Below are positions 42,864 through 50,139 of a DNA stretch of 64,000 bases, piece after piece. Source of the DNA: Pseudomonas kribbensis. GTDB lineage: Bacteria > Pseudomonadota > Gammaproteobacteria > Pseudomonadales > Pseudomonadaceae. Each line of letters opens with the position of its first letter. The first letter of the stretch is position 1. The DNA lies in assembly GCF_003352185.1 (NCBI RefSeq), contig NZ_CP029608.1, forward strand, positions 2,046,001-2,110,000, in the 5' to 3' direction. Below the pieces are notes generated by a model that saw only the letters and a list, made by a program, of their open reading frames with translations, did not search any database and was not told where the DNA came from. Both the position numbers and the translations under genes were made by a program.

Positions 42864-42949
42864 AAAAAAGGCGTCCCGCCAGTTACCTGGCGAGGACGCC
42901 TTTGTCCTTGTCCCGTTCTCTCGGGAAGCCTGGCCTTCGTCGTTGAAGG
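42864..42949 (-). ncRNA. ANTAR-type antitermination leader of nirB
   Basis: Read 5' to 3' on the minus strand: a hairpin with stem CCUUC/GAAGG and loop AACGAC (42934-42949), then UCCCG/CGGGA with loop AGAGAA (42911-42926), then GGAC/GUCC with loop AAAGGC (42894-42907), then the terminator stem (42870-42900) and U6. All three six-base loops have A at position 1 and G at position 4, the pattern recognised by ANTAR proteins such as NasT. The third hairpin shares GGCGUCC with the terminator's 5' arm, so the two are mutually exclusive. This is one hexaloop hairpin more than the usual pair. Confidence 0.9.
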
Positions 42950-42978
42950 TCGGGCTTAATGTCAGTTGAAAACGATCA

Positions 42979-42994
42979 TGCAGTGGTTGTGCCA
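42979..42994 (-). promoter_or_regulatory. Sigma-54 promoter of nirB operon
   Basis: Minus-strand TGGCACAACCACTGCA fits the -24/-12 consensus TGGCAC-N5-TTGCW except for one position in the -12 element. Start of transcription is expected near 42968, about 19 bp before the first leader hairpin. A candidate NtrC site (TTGCACCGATTGGATGCGG, plus strand) lies at 43059-43077, 65 bp upstream of the -24 element. Confidence 0.8.
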
Positions 42995-43101: not shown

Positions 43102-44772
43102 TCAGCCATGAAACAACAGGAACAGCAGCACCAGATTGCCCAGCAGCGCCAGTAACGCCAATGTCCGCCAGACCTTCAGCGGCTCCCGTTCGAGCAAGGG
43201 GCGAGGGCGTACATTCAGGCTGCGGCGTTCACCCTGTTCCAGCGTGAGCAACCATTCTTCGGCAGTTTCATAGCGTTGCAACGGATCGGCCGAGACCCCG
43301 CGTTCCAGACACTGCGCCAGCCATTCCGGCAGATCCGGCCGATAACGCGCCGCACTCACCGGCACCCCGAAGCGCGGTCGCTGAAACGCTTCGATCTCGC
43401 CGTAGGGATAGTGCCCGGTGAGCAGGAAATATAACGTCACGCCCACCGAATACAGATCCTGACGAGCCTCGGGTGCATCACCCCGAAAGGACTCCGGGGC
43501 GATGTAGCTAGGAGTGCCGGGCAAGGTTGACGGTGTGTCCTGCGACAGGCCGGCACAATACGCCAGACCGAAATCCAGCAGACGCAACTCGCCGTCATCC
43601 CCCAGCAGCAGGTTTTCCGGTTTGATGTCGCGGTGCAGAATCTGCCGCCGATGCAGCAGACCGACGGCCCGCAACAGGCGTTCGGCCACATCCTGCCACT
43701 GAGGCAGCGACAACGGGCCGCTTTGCTCGAACAGCCGCGCGAGGGTGATTCCCGAATATTCACGCATCACGTAATACAAATGCTGACGCTGACTGGCGCC
43801 ATGGACTTCAGGGAAATGTCGCCCGGCCACGCGTTTGAGAAACCATTCCTCCGCCAGCAAGGCCTGACCTGCGTGGGCATCGTCCGCCAGCCGTGTGGGC
43901 AAGGTCTTCAACAGCCACGCCTGGCCTTGGCTATCGAGGACGCGATACAGCAGCGATTGCTGGCTTTGGCCGACAATGCCTTGAACCTGCCAGCCTTCGA
44001 AGATCTGGCCCGGTTTGAGCGTCGGGGGCAGGGGCCATTGCTGCAGCTGGATCAATGCATCGCCGATGCTCGCTTCCCCCACGGCATCCACCCGCACCAG
44101 CAGGGCGCTGGCGTTGTCCTGGCTGCCGGCCAGGTGCGCGGCGTTGACTAGCGTTTGTGCCGCACTGTGCAGATCCGGTTGATCGCGCAGGATTCCGGCG
44201 ATGGCTGTGTCGCCAAGCACGGCCCAGACACCGTCGCTGAGCAGCACGAAGCTTTCGCCCTCACGCAGCTCGCCGTCGAGAAAATCCAGCACCAGATGCT
44301 GATCCAGTCCCAGTGCACGCTTGAGCACGTGCTGCATGCCTGGTTGCTCCCAGACGTGATCCTCGGTGATCCGCTGCAGGATGTCGGCGTGCCAGCGATA
44401 GACCCGACAATCCCCCACATGCGCCAGCGTGAAGCGCCTCCCGCGCATGACCAGGGCGCTGACGGTGGTGAGCAACGGCTGGCCGCCGCCATTGGCCTGC
44501 AACCAGCGGTTTTGCGCGAGCAGCAGGCGATCCAGCGCCTGGGCCACGCTCCAGGTCTGCGGGGTGGCGTAGTAGTCCAGCGCCAGCGCCTGCAGGGTCG
44601 AGCGCGCAGCCAGACCGCCATCGGCGCACTGGCTGACGCCGTCGGCGATGGCGAACAGAAACCCTTTGCTGGCAGCCAGCGCCGGGGCCGGCGTAACCAG
44701 GCGCAAGGCGTCCTGATTTTCTGCGCGCGGGCCGGTGACGCTGGCTTCGGCGAAGCTCAGTTGCAGGGCCAT
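43102..44772 (-). CDS. Membrane-anchored PP2C phosphatase / Ser-Thr protein kinase fusion
   Basis: 556 residues. The N-terminal part (1-235) is a PP2C-type phosphatase with ENQDALRLV, FAIADGVSQCADGG, AHVGDCRVY and LLSDGVWAVLGD. The C-terminal part (about 260-530) is a eukaryotic-type kinase with catalytic HRDIKPENLL (about 377) and DFG (about 400); its glycine loop (GIVGQSQQSLLY) is degenerate. A single C-terminal membrane helix (TLALLALLGNLVLLFLLF) follows. It lies 7 bp after the nitrate transporter and is co-transcribed with it, a conserved placement in Pseudomonas, so nitrate uptake or reduction may be controlled by reversible phosphorylation. Confidence 0.92.
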   Translation of the reverse strand: MALQLSFAEASVTGPRAENQDALRLVTPAPALAASKGFLFAIADGVSQCADGGLAARSTLQALALDYYATPQTWSVAQALDRLLLAQNRWLQANGGGQPLLTTVSALVMRGRRFTLAHVGDCRVYRWHADILQRITEDHVWEQPGMQHVLKRALGLDQHLVLDFLDGELREGESFVLLSDGVWAVLGDTAIAGILRDQPDLHSAAQTLVNAAHLAGSQDNASALLVRVDAVGEASIGDALIQLQQWPLPPTLKPGQIFEGWQVQGIVGQSQQSLLYRVLDSQGQAWLLKTLPTRLADDAHAGQALLAEEWFLKRVAGRHFPEVHGASQRQHLYYVMREYSGITLARLFEQSGPLSLPQWQDVAERLLRAVGLLHRRQILHRDIKPENLLLGDDGELRLLDFGLAYCAGLSQDTPSTLPGTPSYIAPESFRGDAPEARQDLYSVGVTLYFLLTGHYPYGEIEAFQRPRFGVPVSAARYRPDLPEWLAQCLERGVSADPLQRYETAEEWLLTLEQGERRSLNVRPRPLLEREPLKVWRTLALLALLGNLVLLFLLFHG

Positions 44773-44779
44773 GCGGGCC

Positions 44780-45991
44780 TCAGACCCGGGCAGCGGTCAC
44801 GGCCGCCGAACCCCAGGTGGTTCTCCAGCGACGTTTGACGCCGTGCAGGCCGAACCATGCCAACACGCCAAGGCTAGCGAACAACCACAGCGCCAGTTGA
44901 TAGCTGCCGGTGCTCTGTTTGATCGCACCCATGCCGGCCGCCAGGGCAAAACCGCCGATGCCGCCGGCCATGCCGATCAGCCCGGTCATCACGCCGATCT
45001 CGCGGCGGAAGCGCTGCGGCACCAGTTGGAACACCGCGCCGTTACCCGCGCCGAGACCGAGCATGGTGCAGACGAACAGTGCCAGCGCCGCGTAGGAACT
45101 CGGCAGGTTGAAGCCGACAGCCGCGATGCAGACCGCCGCCACCGTGTACATCGCCAAGAGCGTGCGAATCCCGCCGAAACGGTCAGCCAGCGCGCCGCCC
45201 AGCGGGCGCATCAGGCTGCCACCGAACACGCAGGCGGCGGTGTAGTAGCCGGCGGTGACCGGGCTCAGGCCGTATTGATCGTTGAAGTAGCCGGGCAGGG
45301 CGCTGGCCAGGCCGATGAAACCGCCGAAGGTGACGCTGTAGAAAAACATGAACCACCAACTGTCACGGTCGCCCAACGCCTTGAAGTAGTCGGCCATGGA
45401 TTTGGCTTTTGGTCGCTCCGGCGCGTTTTTCGCCAGCCAGGAGAACAGCACCAGCGTCAGGATCAGCGGAATCAGGGCGAAACCGAACACATTGCTCCAG
45501 CCGAACGCCGCTGCCAGTACCGGAGCGATCAGCGCCGCGAACACGGTCCCGGAATTGCCGGCCCCGGCGATGCCCATTGCCTTGCCCTGATGCTCCGGCG
45601 GATACCACTGCGAGGCCAGCGGCAGCGCCACGGCAAACGAAGCGCCGGCCATGCCGAGGAACAGGCCAAGCAGAAGCGCCTGTTCGTAGCTGTGGATGCC
45701 GAGTTTCCAGGCACCGAACAGGGCGCAGATCACGATCACCTGGCCGATCAGCCCGGCGGTTTTCGGCGACAGGCGATCGGCAAGCATGCCCATCGCAAAG
45801 CGCAGCACGGCCCCGGCCAGAATCGGCGTGGCCACTACCAGGCCGCGCTGCTGGGTGGTCAGGTGCAGGTCGGCGGCGATCTGCACCGCCAGCGGGCCGA
45901 GCAGATACCAGACCATGAAGCTCAGGTCGAAATACAGGAAGGCCGCGAACAGGGTCGGGATGTGGCCGGATTTCCAGAAGCTTTTATTCAT
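44780..45991 (-). CDS. narK: Nitrate/nitrite MFS transporter
   Basis: 403 residues, 12 hydrophobic segments, NarK/NasA type of the major facilitator family. Two nitrate signature motifs are present: GNSGTVFAALIAPVLA and GNGAVFQLVPQRF. It imports nitrate (or exchanges nitrite) for the cytoplasmic reductases. ATG 45991 has GAGGTG upstream and starts MNKSFWKSGHIPTLF; the frame is open to 46066 inside the leader, without conservation. Often called nasA in older Pseudomonas annotation. Confidence 0.93.
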   Translation of the reverse strand: MNKSFWKSGHIPTLFAAFLYFDLSFMVWYLLGPLAVQIAADLHLTTQQRGLVVATPILAGAVLRFAMGMLADRLSPKTAGLIGQVIVICALFGAWKLGIHSYEQALLLGLFLGMAGASFAVALPLASQWYPPEHQGKAMGIAGAGNSGTVFAALIAPVLAAAFGWSNVFGFALIPLILTLVLFSWLAKNAPERPKAKSMADYFKALGDRDSWWFMFFYSVTFGGFIGLASALPGYFNDQYGLSPVTAGYYTAACVFGGSLMRPLGGALADRFGGIRTLLAMYTVAAVCIAAVGFNLPSSYAALALFVCTMLGLGAGNGAVFQLVPQRFRREIGVMTGLIGMAGGIGGFALAAGMGAIKQSTGSYQLALWLFASLGVLAWFGLHGVKRRWRTTWGSAAVTAARV

Positions 45992-46093
45992 CGCGCACCT
46001 CAGCGGTAGAGAATCTCGAGAAGGAATCAGAACCAGCACAGTGGGGCGCCGCCACGGCCGCACCACCGGCCCCGGTCAATGGGGCCAAAACGC

Positions 46094-46180
46094 AAAAACG
46101 CCGCTACCCGGATCGCCGAAAGGGGCGAAGGAGGTGAGCGACGTCTTTGTCGTGGGTGGGGGCAACCGCCGTTGGTTACC
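46094..46180 (-). ncRNA. ANTAR-type antitermination leader of narK
   Basis: On the minus strand a hairpin with stem GGUAACC/GGUUGCC and loop AACGGC (46161-46180), then CGAC/GUCG with loop AAAGAC (46139-46152), then a long imperfect terminator hairpin whose arms are CGUCGCU and AGCGGCG, then UUUUU (ends 46094). Both hexaloops have A1 and G4. The GUCG of the second hairpin is also part of the terminator's 5' arm, so NasT binding would prevent termination. Confidence 0.9.
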
Positions 46181-46194
46181 TGTAGGGATTGCTT

Positions 46195-46210
46195 AGCGAG
46201 ATCTGTGCCA
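46195..46210 (-). promoter_or_regulatory. Sigma-54 promoter of narK
   Basis: Minus-strand TGGCACAGATCTCGCT is a near-consensus -24/-12 element directly after the nasT stop (46213). The start site would be near 46184, four bases before the first leader hairpin. Enhancer sites, if any, must lie inside the nasT coding region. Confidence 0.85.
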
Positions 46211-46212
46211 GC

Positions 46213-46788
46213 TCAGCCAAGCAACTCGCTCATGGCAATGATCTGCTCTGCCACCTGAATCAGTTTCTGCTGGCGACTCATGGCCTGGCGGCGCATCAGG
46301 GTGTAGGCCTCTTCTTCGTTGCAGTCCTTCATTTTCATCAGCAGACCCTTGGCCAGTTCGATGCGTTTGCGCTCGGCCAGTTGCTGGTCGCGGGCCTGTA
46401 GCTGGGCGCGCAGGGCCTGGTCGCTTTCGAAGCGGGCCATGGCCACGTCGAGAATCGGCTGCAAGCGTTGTGCGTGGATGCCTTCGACGATGTAGGCACT
46501 GACCCCGGACTTGATCGCCTGACGCATCACGCCGGGGTCGTGCTCGTCGGTGAACATCACGATCGGCCGGGGCTGGTCGCGAGTGACCAGTACCACTTGT
46601 TCCATTACATCGCGGCCCGGTGACTCGGTATCGATCAGGATCACGTCCGGGCGCACCGTTTCGACGCGCGCCGGCAGGTCGATGGTCAGGCCCGATTCGT
46701 CGATCACCTCGAAGCCGGCCTCGGTCAGCGCGGCTTTCAGGCGGCCGACTTTTTTCGCCGTGTCGTTGATCAGCAGAATGCGCAGCAT
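46213..46788 (-). CDS. nasT: ANTAR-domain antiterminator NasT
   Basis: 191 residues. The receiver-like N-terminal domain (1-125) keeps INDT and VILIDTESPG but has VEG where a receiver normally has the conserved Lys (AYIVEGIHAQ), so it is not expected to be an ordinary phospho-receiver. The C-terminal ANTAR RNA-binding domain (about 135-188) has RIELAKGLLMKMKDCNEEEA and LMRRQAMSRQQKLI. NasT binds A1/G4 hexaloop pairs in nascent RNA; NasS sequesters it when nitrate is absent. It is co-transcribed with nasS, 15 bp downstream. Confidence 0.95.
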   Translation of the reverse strand: MLRILLINDTAKKVGRLKAALTEAGFEVIDESGLTIDLPARVETVRPDVILIDTESPGRDVMEQVVLVTRDQPRPIVMFTDEHDPGVMRQAIKSGVSAYIVEGIHAQRLQPILDVAMARFESDQALRAQLQARDQQLAERKRIELAKGLLMKMKDCNEEEAYTLMRRQAMSRQQKLIQVAEQIIAMSELLG

Positions 46789-46803
46789 GTTCGCGGTCTC
46801 CTG

Positions 46804-48015
46804 TCAGCGGTGGGCGAGAAGAGGGGCGGTGTTGCTCAACGCGTGCAGCTTGAAGCTTTGCGCGTAGGCGGCGGGGTCGCTGCCGTCCCAGACCTTGCCG
46901 TCGATCAACTGGCTGCTGCGCATGTCCTCCGTGCCGACTTGCACACCGACCGCGCTGGCGGCGTCGCGGTACAGTGCCAGTTGCTGTACTTGACGGGCGA
47001 CGGAGAGGTAATCCGGGTCGTCGCGCAGCAAACCCCAGCGGCGGAACTGGGTCATGAACCACATGCCGTCCGACAGATACGGCAGATTCACCGCACCATC
47101 GCCGTGAAAGCGCAGGGCGTGCGGGTCTTGCCAGCGGTTGCCCAGACCGTCGTCGTAGTCGCCGAGAAAACGCGGTTCGATGCAGGACACCGGGGCGTCG
47201 AGGTACTCGGCGGCGCTGAGCAGGTGCGCGGTGCTGCGGCGGTTTTCCGGGTTTTCTTCGATGAAACGGCTGGCTTCGAGGATCGCCATCACCAGCGCCC
47301 GCGCCGTGTTGGGGTATTGCTCGACGAAGGCGCGGGTGCAGCCGAGGACCTTTTCCGGGTGATCGGGCCAGATGGTCTGGCTGGTCGCCAGGGTGAAACC
47401 GAGATTCTGCTGTACGGCGCTGGCGGCCCACGGCTCGCCGACGCAGAAACCGTCGATGCGACCGGCCTGCAGGTGCGCGACCATTTGCGGCGGCGGCACC
47501 ACCACACTGTCGACATCCTGCAACGGATGGATGCCCTGGCTCGCCAGCCAGTAATACAGCCACATGGCATGGGTGCCGGTGGGGAAGGTCTGGGCGAAGG
47601 TCAGCCTTGCGCGGGTTTGGTGCACATGACGGTCCAGCGCCTCAGGACCGGTCGCGCCCAGCCCCTGCAAGCCGTGGGACAGGTTGAGGCTCTGGCCGTT
47701 CTGGTTCAGGCCCATCAGCACCGCCATGTCGATGGAAGCAACGCCGCCGATGCCCAGATGTACCGCGTAGATCAAACCGTACAGGCTGTGGGCGGCGTCG
47801 AGTTCACCGCTGACCAGATTGTCCCGCAGGTTGGCCCAGGAACTCTGGCGCTTGAGATTCAAGGTCAGGCCGTAAGGCTGGGCAAAGCCCTGGGTGGCGG
47901 CGACCACCACCGAAGCGCAGTCGCTCAGGGCCATGAAACCGAGGTTGATCGCGCTTTTTTCCGGGGCATCGCTGCCGTTGACCCAGGCCAGTGGCCCGAC
48001 GGAGGTTTGAGTCAT
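46804..48015 (-). CDS. nasS: Cytoplasmic nitrate/nitrite sensor NasS
   Basis: 403 residues, related to the ABC nitrate-binding protein NrtA but with no signal peptide: the start MTQTSVGPLAWVNG is hydrophilic. It binds nitrate/nitrite and in its absence holds NasT inactive. ATG 48015; the open frame upstream lies in the leader RNA. First gene of the nasST unit. Confidence 0.92.
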   Translation of the reverse strand: MTQTSVGPLAWVNGSDAPEKSAINLGFMALSDCASVVVAATQGFAQPYGLTLNLKRQSSWANLRDNLVSGELDAAHSLYGLIYAVHLGIGGVASIDMAVLMGLNQNGQSLNLSHGLQGLGATGPEALDRHVHQTRARLTFAQTFPTGTHAMWLYYWLASQGIHPLQDVDSVVVPPPQMVAHLQAGRIDGFCVGEPWAASAVQQNLGFTLATSQTIWPDHPEKVLGCTRAFVEQYPNTARALVMAILEASRFIEENPENRRSTAHLLSAAEYLDAPVSCIEPRFLGDYDDGLGNRWQDPHALRFHGDGAVNLPYLSDGMWFMTQFRRWGLLRDDPDYLSVARQVQQLALYRDAASAVGVQVGTEDMRSSQLIDGKVWDGSDPAAYAQSFKLHALSNTAPLLAHR

Positions 48016-48027
48016 GAAGCCACCCTC

Positions 48028-48107
48028 AAAAAAAACGCCGTCCGAGGCTTTGCCCGCGCAAAACCGAGAGACGACGCCATTGTCCTTGCCTGCACGCCAC
48101 CATTGGC
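48028..48107 (-). ncRNA. ANTAR-type antitermination leader of nasST
   Basis: On the minus strand a hairpin with GCC/GGC and loop AAUGGU (48096-48107), then GAC/GUC with loop AAUGGC (48073-48084), then a terminator with arms CGUCGUC and GGACGGCG, an inner GGUUUUGC/GCAAAGCC stem, and U8 (48028-48035). Both loops have A1 and G4. The second hairpin's GUC (48073-48075) lies inside the terminator's 5' arm (48070-48076). This leader would place nasT expression under NasT's own control. Confidence 0.85.
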
Positions 48108-48130
48108 CTGCGGGCTGATATCGGGGAAGG

Positions 48131-48146
48131 TGCAAGGCATATGCCA
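48131..48146 (-). promoter_or_regulatory. Sigma-54 promoter of nasST
   Basis: Minus-strand TGGCATATGCCTTGCA matches the consensus TGGCAC-N5-TTGCA at all but one base. Expected start near 48120, about 13 bp before the first leader hairpin. Confidence 0.85.
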
Positions 48147-48194
48147 GCGCAGCGGATTTGCGCATGCGCCTCGCGCGGCAGGGCGATGCCCGGC

Positions 48195-48200
48195 TATAAT
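48195..48200 (+). promoter_or_regulatory. pyrD -10 element
   Basis: Perfect TATAAT 36 bp before the pyrD ATG. The -35 region is GC-rich with no clear TTGACA. The start would fall in CCGCCTCTTTTCG, a pyrimidine-rich run; the leader has no strong ribosome site. Confidence 0.6.
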
Positions 48201-48236
48201 CGCCGCCTCTTTTCGCCGCCCGAGTCATAGCCGCCC

Positions 48237-49256
48237 ATGTACACCCTGGCCCGTCAGCTGTTGTTCAAACTTTCCCCGGAAACCTCCCACGATCTGTCGC
48301 TGGATCTGATCGGCGCGGGCGGGCGTTTGGGCCTCAACGGCTTGCTGTGCAAGGCGCCGGCTTCGCTGCCGGTGAACGTCATGGGCCTGCAGTTCCCGAA
48401 CCCTGTCGGTCTGGCGGCGGGTCTGGACAAGAACGGCGCGGCCATCGACGGCTTCGCGCAGCTGGGTTTCGGTTTTGTCGAAATCGGCACCGTGACTCCG
48501 CGCCCGCAGCCGGGCAACCCGAAACCACGGATTTTCCGCCTGCCGGAAGCCGAGGCGATCATCAACCGCATGGGTTTCAACAACCTCGGTGTGGACAACC
48601 TGTTGGCGCGGGTGGCGGCGGCCAAATACAAAGGCGTGCTGGGGATCAATATCGGCAAGAACTTCGACACCCCGGTCGAGCGTGCGGTGGATGACTACCT
48701 GATCTGCCTGGACAAGGTCTACGCCCACGCCAGTTACGTCACGGTCAACGTCAGTTCGCCGAACACCCCGGGCCTGCGCAGCCTGCAATTCGGTGATTCG
48801 CTCAAGCAATTGCTGGCAGATCTGGCCACGCGTCGCGCCGAACTGGCCCTGCGTCACGGCAAGCATGTTCCGCTGGCGATCAAGATCGCGCCGGACATGA
48901 CCGACGAAGAAACGGCGCAGGTCGCACAAGCGCTGATCGAAACCGGGATGGACGCGGTGATCGCCACCAACACCACCCTCAGCCGCGTAGGCGTCGAAGG
49001 CATGGAACATGGTGACGAGGCGGGCGGTCTGTCCGGTGCGCCGGTGCGTGAGAAGAGCACCCATACCGTGAAAGTGCTGGCGTCCGAGCTGGGCGGCAAA
49101 CTGCCGATCATCGCGGCCGGCGGCATCACCGAAGGCAAGCATGCGGCCGAGAAGATCACTGCCGGCGCGAGCCTGGTGCAGATCTACTCCGGCTTCATCT
49201 ACAAAGGCCCGGCGCTGATCCGTGAATCCGTGGACGCTATCGCCGCCAGGCGCTGA
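48237..49256 (+). CDS. pyrD: Dihydroorotate dehydrogenase (quinone)
   Basis: 339 residues, class 2 enzyme. It oxidises dihydroorotate to orotate using membrane quinone. The N-terminal amphipathic helix ([20 protein letters not shown]) anchors it to the inner membrane. FMN- and substrate-binding segments ([26 protein letters not shown] with the catalytic Ser) are intact. Same neighbour order (pyrD-rmf-rlmKL) as in other pseudomonads. Confidence 0.96.
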
Positions 49257-49609: not shown

Positions 49610-50139
49610 AGGGTGTTTCCCTCACTTGTTGACTGTTTTTGTCGCGTCGACCTCAATTGAGGTCTGGCAGAAAAACTCTGCCGTTGGCGGCTCGCTGCCG
49701 GCGTGGCGAGCCAAGGTGTTGACGCCGTTGCGGCGTCAACCTGTGTCCAGTTCTAACCAATGAGTCACATCGAGGGAATGACCGTTTTGTCATAAGGACG
49801 TAACGAAAAGGGTGCTATGGCGATAAGTAACGGCAGGTTTCATGAATGTTTATTCACCAAACCCCGGTATGATCGGCCCTGCGCTGTATGACAGGTTTAA
49901 TGCCTTAGTGAGAATGACCCACGTTTACCGTCGGGTACTTTTCGACGAAGGGTTGCTTTGAGTCATTTTGTTGCATCAACTTTTTTATCTGTCCCGGCAT
50001 CTAAGCTCCTTTGACCCGAGCAGCGGGGATGGAACGGCACACCTTCGTGCCACGCGGGCGCTCTTGTAGAAAAGCGCCTGATTGAAAACCGGATCGGCAA
50101 TGCGTTGCCGGTTCATTAGCCAAAGGCTCTGGAAAAACC
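49610..50139. other. 530-bp divergent regulatory region rmf-rlmKL
   Basis: No gene seen. Holds a hairpin with a perfect 9-bp stem (GTTGACGCC at 49718-49726, GGCGTCAAC at 49732-49740), an AT-richer stretch 49790-50000, and a GGCGCT/AGCGCC hairpin just before rlmKL. It must carry the promoters of both genes; TATGAT at 49868-49873 is a -10 candidate for rlmKL. A small RNA here is possible but not shown. Confidence 0.5.

Follow-up and report, generated by a model that had tools for sequence, protein, structure and literature searches.

Layout of the nasST locus and anatomy of its leader

We analyse a window of 64,000 nucleotides of Pseudomonas kribbensis DNA (contig NZ_CP029608.1), in which a nitrate sensor gene, nasS, and a gene for a receiver-ANTAR protein, nasT, lie behind a leader with two hexaloop hairpins and a terminator. 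The features of the locus are as follows:

48132..48146, minus strand: sigma-54 type promoter TGGCATATGCCTTGC, with GG and GC elements (-24/-12) 10 bp apart
48092..48111, minus strand: P1 hairpin, gccAATGGTggc at 48107-48096, with a GCA/TGC extension past a G-G mismatch
48073..48084, minus strand: P2, the predicted antiterminator hairpin, gacAATGGCgtc, with exactly three pairs
48028..48077, minus strand: intrinsic terminator, identified by folding, with T8 at 48028-48035
46804..48015, minus strand: nasS, nitrate sensor of the NMT1_2 family (PF13379; Pfam), 403 aa, ATG at 48015
46213..46788, minus strand: nasT, receiver plus ANTAR domain (PF00072/PF03861; Pfam), 191 aa
46094..46210, minus strand: narK leader (Rfam RF03032), with a sigma-54 type promoter, ggtaaccAACGGCggttgcc, cgacAAAGACgtcg and an overlapping terminator
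44780..45991, minus strand: narK/nasA-type transporter (MFS; Pfam), the gene name taken from the Rfam leader and the position
42864..42994, minus strand: nirB leader (Rfam P11, RF00625), with a sigma-54 type promoter and three A1/G4 hexaloop hairpins, the third overlapping a terminator

The two regulatory genes form one unit, with nasT downstream of nasS across a gap of 15 nt, which bears out the claim of the preliminary description that NasT is encoded in the transcription unit behind the nasS leader. By Pfam they are a NasS-NasT pair, a binding-protein sensor adjoining a receiver-ANTAR protein. The range singled out in that description, 46094-48146, extends from the narK leader terminator to the nasS promoter and hence holds two leaders. 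The nirB leader has three A1/G4 hexaloop hairpins, not two; all three loops are kept in the Rfam P11 consensus, and P11 is classed in Rfam as an sRNA gene. The window also holds a gene encoding PP2C phosphatase and protein kinase domains between narK and nirB (43102-44772, minus strand; Pfam) and an rmf RNA (RF01755, 123 bits; 49628-49760, minus strand).

Both hairpins of the nasS leader present a hexaloop with A at position 1 and G at position 4: AATGGT in P1 (48099-48104, minus strand) and, on the three-pair stem of P2, AATGGC (48076-48081, minus strand). The 5' arm of the terminator starts at position 5 of the P2 loop and takes in the 3' arm of P2, and T8 ends 12 nt before the nasS ATG. When the leader is folded freely it adopts P1 plus the terminator at -52.1 kcal/mol (z -2.59; 4 of 200 shuffles are equally low), the folding program adding an A1-U6 pair that closes the P1 loop; the terminator hairpin by itself reaches -25.4 kcal/mol. 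Forcing P2 to form costs 7.6 kcal/mol (-44.2 to -36.6), and this unfavourable balance fits an antiterminator that needs a protein. Coordinates and folding thus agree with the two A1/G4 hairpins, the U8 terminator ahead of nasS and the overlap of its 5' arm with the second hairpin that had been described, and the sigma-54 control proposed there is supported, as far as sequence goes, by the promoter at 48132-48146. Exact chance matches to the sigma-54 pattern that we used average 1.05 per window. A generic terminator scan with a loop limit of 3-8 did not return the nasS leader terminator.

We ran the Rfam search that the preliminary description had proposed. The narK RNA family, RF03032, does match the nasS leader, but below threshold (29.4 bits against a gathering score of 43.2, E 0.005), and it passes on the narK leader of the window at 79.8 bits. 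Since no family reaches its gathering score over the nasS leader, we dropped Rfam as proof of its ANTAR identity. Judged by its own sequence, the nasS leader is nevertheless canonical, with every ANTAR-leader feature that we tested. Its layout is that of narK RNA, and the EutV leaders of E. faecalis eut are described with the same elements: P1 and P2 hexaloops carrying A1 and G4, and a P2 that overlaps the terminator. EutV itself differs from NasT in being activated by a sensor kinase, with no release from a binding protein.

Which protein would read this leader? With all 58 candidates scored, PF03861 is found in one protein of the genome, NasT, which leaves it as the cognate ANTAR protein. 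NasT is matched by 4993 of 5424 candidate proteins at E <= 0.001, and the source names among the 120 matches listed are mostly NasT or ANTAR-domain response regulator. The nearest solved structures are 1s8n, which we take to be Rv1626, and 6wsh, presumably EutV; 1qo0 (AmiR) and 4akk (NasR) also match. By hand alignment, Tyr 162 and Met 170 of NasT stand opposite Tyr164 and Met172 of EutV, two residues described as contacting the hexaloop, and the second RNA-facing Lys of EutV is Leu in NasT. In its own genome our leader model R1 places the nasS leader first (E 7.3e-23), then narK (6.8e-7) and nirB (1.1e-3), with the next match at E 1.09, in a scan that scored 150 of 4139 first-look candidates. 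NasT, a single protein, most likely acts at all three leaders.

Chance, conservation and covariation

How easily could such an arrangement arise by accident? With T8 held fixed, two suitably spaced A1/G4 hairpins appear in 310 of 20000 dinucleotide shuffles, and two hairpins together with an overlapping terminator in 12 of 20000. The arrangement is unlikely to be due to chance, and conservation is a weightier test of this than shuffling. We gathered 110 nasS loci (30 from genomes of the genus plus 80 from named strains, the latter being the best 80 of 596); the named loci overlap with other sets of this study at L111/L199 and L110/L164. The selection pattern asked for a promoter, [TC]GGCA-N6-[TC][TC]GC, a P2 with A1/G4 and a T-run, left P1 free, and also admitted one variant P2 (L072, discussed below); it is satisfied at 91 of the 110 loci. 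The alignment consists of 59 leaders, chosen by us among 87 distinct, pattern-selected ones.

P1 played no part in selection. Its loop has A1 in 58 of the 59 leaders and G4 in 57, and seven of its eight stem pairs have changed on both sides, with one inner pair open in 27 of 59. The terminator stem has both-sided changes at 5 of 9 pairs. For P1 and terminator together, 12 of 17 pairs have such changes, and the 121 both-sided cells (51.3 when shuffled) are reached in none of 500 shuffles; when the partner is offset by 1-3 columns, pairing drops from 87.2% to 31.6-53.5%. The covariation score of P1 plus P2 is 0.258 against 0.091 shuffled. Judged by these substitutions, selection is acting on P1 and the terminator in genomes that bear the leader. 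An explanation of the hairpins as accidents in a GC-rich leader whose terminator is an ordinary one, for which one could cite the 310 shuffles with two hairpins, is contradicted by the 12 with the full arrangement, by the 91 of 110 loci and by the covarying stems, and we regard it as almost certainly wrong.

Other parts of the alignment carry less information. The three pairs of P2 are invariant in 59 of 59 leaders because the selection pattern largely forces P2, and the promoter elements GGCA and TTGC are likewise present in all 59 of an alignment that was selected on the sigma-54 site. A fourth P2 pair was considered and rejected, since it fails in 56 of 59 leaders. The arm shared by P2 and the terminator reads GAC/GTC at 151 of 157 detected sites and GGC/GCC at 6; a three-way covariation analysis of P2, shared arm and terminator was dropped on account of this scarce variation, which leaves the P2/terminator exchange unproved by that route.

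Distribution and apparent loss of the leader

Adding to the 110 loci 38 of the family with nasT adjoining gives a motif tally of 148 nasS loci, in which P1, P2 and a T-run occur together at 101, P2 and a T-run at 9, and P1 and a T-run at 6. The other 32 comprise 15 loci with the promoter less than 100 nt from the start (including L111, yet its counterpart L199 matches the model at 37.5 bits), 8 longer leaders in which both hairpins are absent, 4 that have a single hairpin but lack a T-run, and 5 with no promoter match (including L142 and L143, although both match the model). Of 149 genomes sampled evenly across the genus, 127 carry NasS (>=69% identity), one of them in two pieces; in at least 91 of these the model matches no more than 400 nt upstream of nasS, and 36 have no such match among those listed. 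Two strains of P. protegens, L057 and L062, are among the bearers of the leader. The sister genus g230 has NasS in 23 of 25 genomes, and 21 of the 23 match the model upstream of nasS at 35 bits or more. The exceptions are L209, with no match upstream of nasS, and L197 (18.0 bits), which keeps a P1-like hairpin, lacks the T-run and has no recognisable P2. Some of these 21 leaders appear degraded, L194 and L206 lacking any run of four T ahead of the start.

A rapidly built tree of 156 proteins, of which 122 carry the label leader, 28 are without and 6 form an NrtA-like outgroup (the remaining family rows being labelled by hand), implies 10 changes between leader and no leader, counted without direction. 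Two of its rows, L170 and L171, are labelled leader, yet have no nasT adjoining; they are placed beside the outgroup and are not to be counted as nasS. Leaderless rows include a clade of eight with two strains named P. putida within it, Stutzerimonas, P. psychrophila and scattered others. The leader has apparently been lost several times, a direction that we infer because the leader is widespread and remnants of it are present. In P. psychrophila (L049) the promoter lies 52 nt from the start with a short stretch between. In P. libanensis (L072, 5851-5975) a variant P2, cacATAGGCgtg, remains without a T-run at 39.8 bits, and the leader seems to be decaying. About 0.9 kb upstream of the leaderless nasS of P. 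psychrophila we also note a phage-type C4 antisense RNA with its target element (L049, 4924-5111).

Each of the 19 loci in the leaderless class retains a model match (E <= 7.4e-6) on the downstream side of nasS; two of them, L058 (41.3 bits) and L072 (39.8 bits), also keep one upstream of the gene. The narK RNA family is found in all 10 of the leaderless loci scanned with Rfam.

In a sample of the class, 40 of 274 genomes match NasS at E <= 1e-60, our own included. Among 19 stretches from outside the family, a nasT-like gene lies upstream of the match in 13, 6 have none in the stretch, and none of the 19 has it downstream as in Pseudomonas. R1 matches between the nasT-like and the NasS-like gene in 8 of the 13 (in L134 weakly, at 17.1 bits), and among 17 further upstream stretches it matches elsewhere than in this gap only in L192 (22.3 bits). 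Pfam finds no binding protein in five upstream frames, 3 of which have no family match and are possibly wrong frames. We read these NasS-like matches, without proof, as transporter binding proteins of the NrtA type and not as NasS. Before a true nasS we saw no nasS leader outside Pseudomonadaceae, in a sample small enough to leave its absence unproved. As a separate observation, several ANTAR-like leaders stand between nasT-like and NasS-like (probably NrtA) genes of other Gammaproteobacteria (L118-L129, L177-L192), to whose proteins Pseudomonas NasS is 50-58% identical, against 36-44% for the other NasS-like matches of the class.

Regulation of nasST and the proposed circuit

The preliminary description set its proposal against a common model of constitutive nasST expression, and published work does not favour that model. 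A P. aeruginosa ntrBC study gives -121 / -91.2 for nasS, -92.8 / -83.4 for nasT and -50 / -137 for nirB (PMC7214821), nasS and nasT are strongly down in a P. stutzeri ntrC mutant (PMC8443478), and a Paracoccus nasT fusion on nitrate gives 14500 units with the intact NtrC site and 220 with a mutated one (PMC5424462). In P. putida, nasT rises 7.25-fold on nitrogen limitation in the wild type and 4.00-fold, not significantly, in an rpoN mutant (PMC7801951). These data support NtrC/sigma-54 control of nasST over constitutive expression; those from P. stutzeri and P. putida come from groups without the leader in our sample. On glutamate without nitrate the Paracoccus fusion is high (11000; PMC5424462), evidence against control of nasT by nitrate in that organism. 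Predicted sigma-54 promoters at NasT-type genes have already been published (PMC12316311). In the window, no NtrC box matching the consensus with up to 3 mismatches lies in 48146-48400, which weakens the claim for NtrC binding and leaves the sigma-54 claim unaffected.

Antitermination by NasT has precedents. Once released from NasS, Paracoccus NasT binds the nasA leader (PMC3795266), and a review names the nirBD leader NalA as a NasT target in Pseudomonas, binding to which is weakened by c-di-GMP (PMC12830290). NalA/P11, present here at 42864-42994, has a sigma-54 promoter and NasT antitermination (PMC12830290), as predicted for the nasS leader, and differs in that its target is an enzyme operon and that nirB has three A1/G4 hairpins where nasS has two. 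For B. diazoefficiens genes that are down in a nasT mutant, a published report describes clear hairpins at a coxS gene and nirA only. The amidase operon of P. aeruginosa (amiECBRS) offers a further parallel in which, as described, a binding-protein sensor, AmiC, holds an ANTAR antiterminator, AmiR, that acts on a two-hairpin leader; amiR lies downstream of the amiE leader in that operon, a precedent for an ANTAR regulator with a leader of its own. However, the amiE leader drives an enzyme operon that includes the regulator, whereas the nasS leader serves the regulator pair, and narK and nirB have separate leaders. In the main text of open-licence papers we found no earlier report of nasST autoregulation; the supplementary data of Ramesh 2012 may include a nasS site under the label of a nitrate transporter.

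We consider it very probable that nasST is an operon with its own NasT-responsive antitermination leader, gated by NasT and nitrate. Points that count against this are the 36 of 127 genomes with no listed match, the Leu of NasT opposite the second RNA-facing Lys of EutV, the missing NtrC box, the expression of the Paracoccus fusion on glutamate and the restriction of clear hairpins in B. diazoefficiens to coxS and nirA. The leader anatomy, its conservation, the covariation of P1 and terminator and the single ANTAR protein are established directly, and from the behaviour of the ANTAR family we infer NasT binding and read-through at the nasS leader. Sigma-54 polymerase would start at 48132-48146, probably activated by NtrC in nitrogen limitation. 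When nitrate is absent, NasS would hold NasT, the leader would fold as P1 plus terminator, and most transcripts would stop at T8. Nitrate would free NasT to bind P1 and then P2, and P2 would capture the 5' arm of the terminator and let RNA polymerase continue into nasS and nasT; NasT would work likewise at narK and nirB. Most likely, then, NasT antiterminates nasST, and nitrate probably raises the expression of the pair that senses it.

The sign of the resulting feedback is less simple than the positive NasT loop that had been proposed. The architecture of that loop, a regulator behind its own leader, stands; its purely positive character does not, because the terminator is followed first by nasS, the gene for the antagonist of NasT, which would be released too. 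With both partners raised, the sign of the feedback should depend on nitrate, and because NasS is made first and jointly with NasT the gain would be nitrate-gated. In nitrate both proteins would increase, NasS being ligand-bound and harmless and NasT free, so as to amplify itself; when nitrate is gone, the enlarged NasS pool would recapture NasT, and the system would shut and reset.

Two other readings accept the leader as genuine. The terminated nasS leader might serve mainly as a trans-acting RNA, whose P1 hexaloop sequesters NasT without nitrate as EutX/Rli55 do with EutV. An ANTAR dimer can bind to just one hexaloop, sequestration of EutV has been described for EutX (PMC8934654), P1 stays folded in the terminated RNA, and the related nirB leader P11 bears its sRNA label; but NasT is already held by NasS, the terminated form has P1 alone, and P2 and the terminator are retained immediately before nasS in the style of a cis-acting switch. 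We hold this to be improbable. We give equally little credence to an ANTAR element of small consequence, in which sufficient NasST comes from basal read-through or from an internal promoter. That the leader is repeatedly missing from loci that keep nasST and the downstream match fits that idea, whereas the covariation of P1 and terminator points to selection where the leader is present, a scan of 45900-48300, in itself a weak test, has no sigma-70 consensus match, and T8 and ATG are only 12 nt apart.

If NasT does antiterminate nasST, the regulator pair joins the likely NasT regulon, and nitrogen limitation (through sigma-54) and nitrate (through NasT) would both be needed at the level of regulator, transporter and enzyme. 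The main attraction of the case is the natural pairs with and without the leader: because close relatives differ in this way and the downstream match is present in 19 of 19 leaderless loci, the role of the feedback is directly testable. As a broader and more speculative picture, which we put forward tentatively and think may well be wrong, NasST in most Pseudomonas would be a nitrate-gated, self-amplifying switch with a reset, possibly with memory or cell-to-cell differences, and the module would have been deleted several times, among others in the P. putida group and probably close to P. aeruginosa, so that conclusions from the model species would not transfer. If P. aeruginosa is alike, two well studied species would be without the full switch, which may explain why it has been overlooked.
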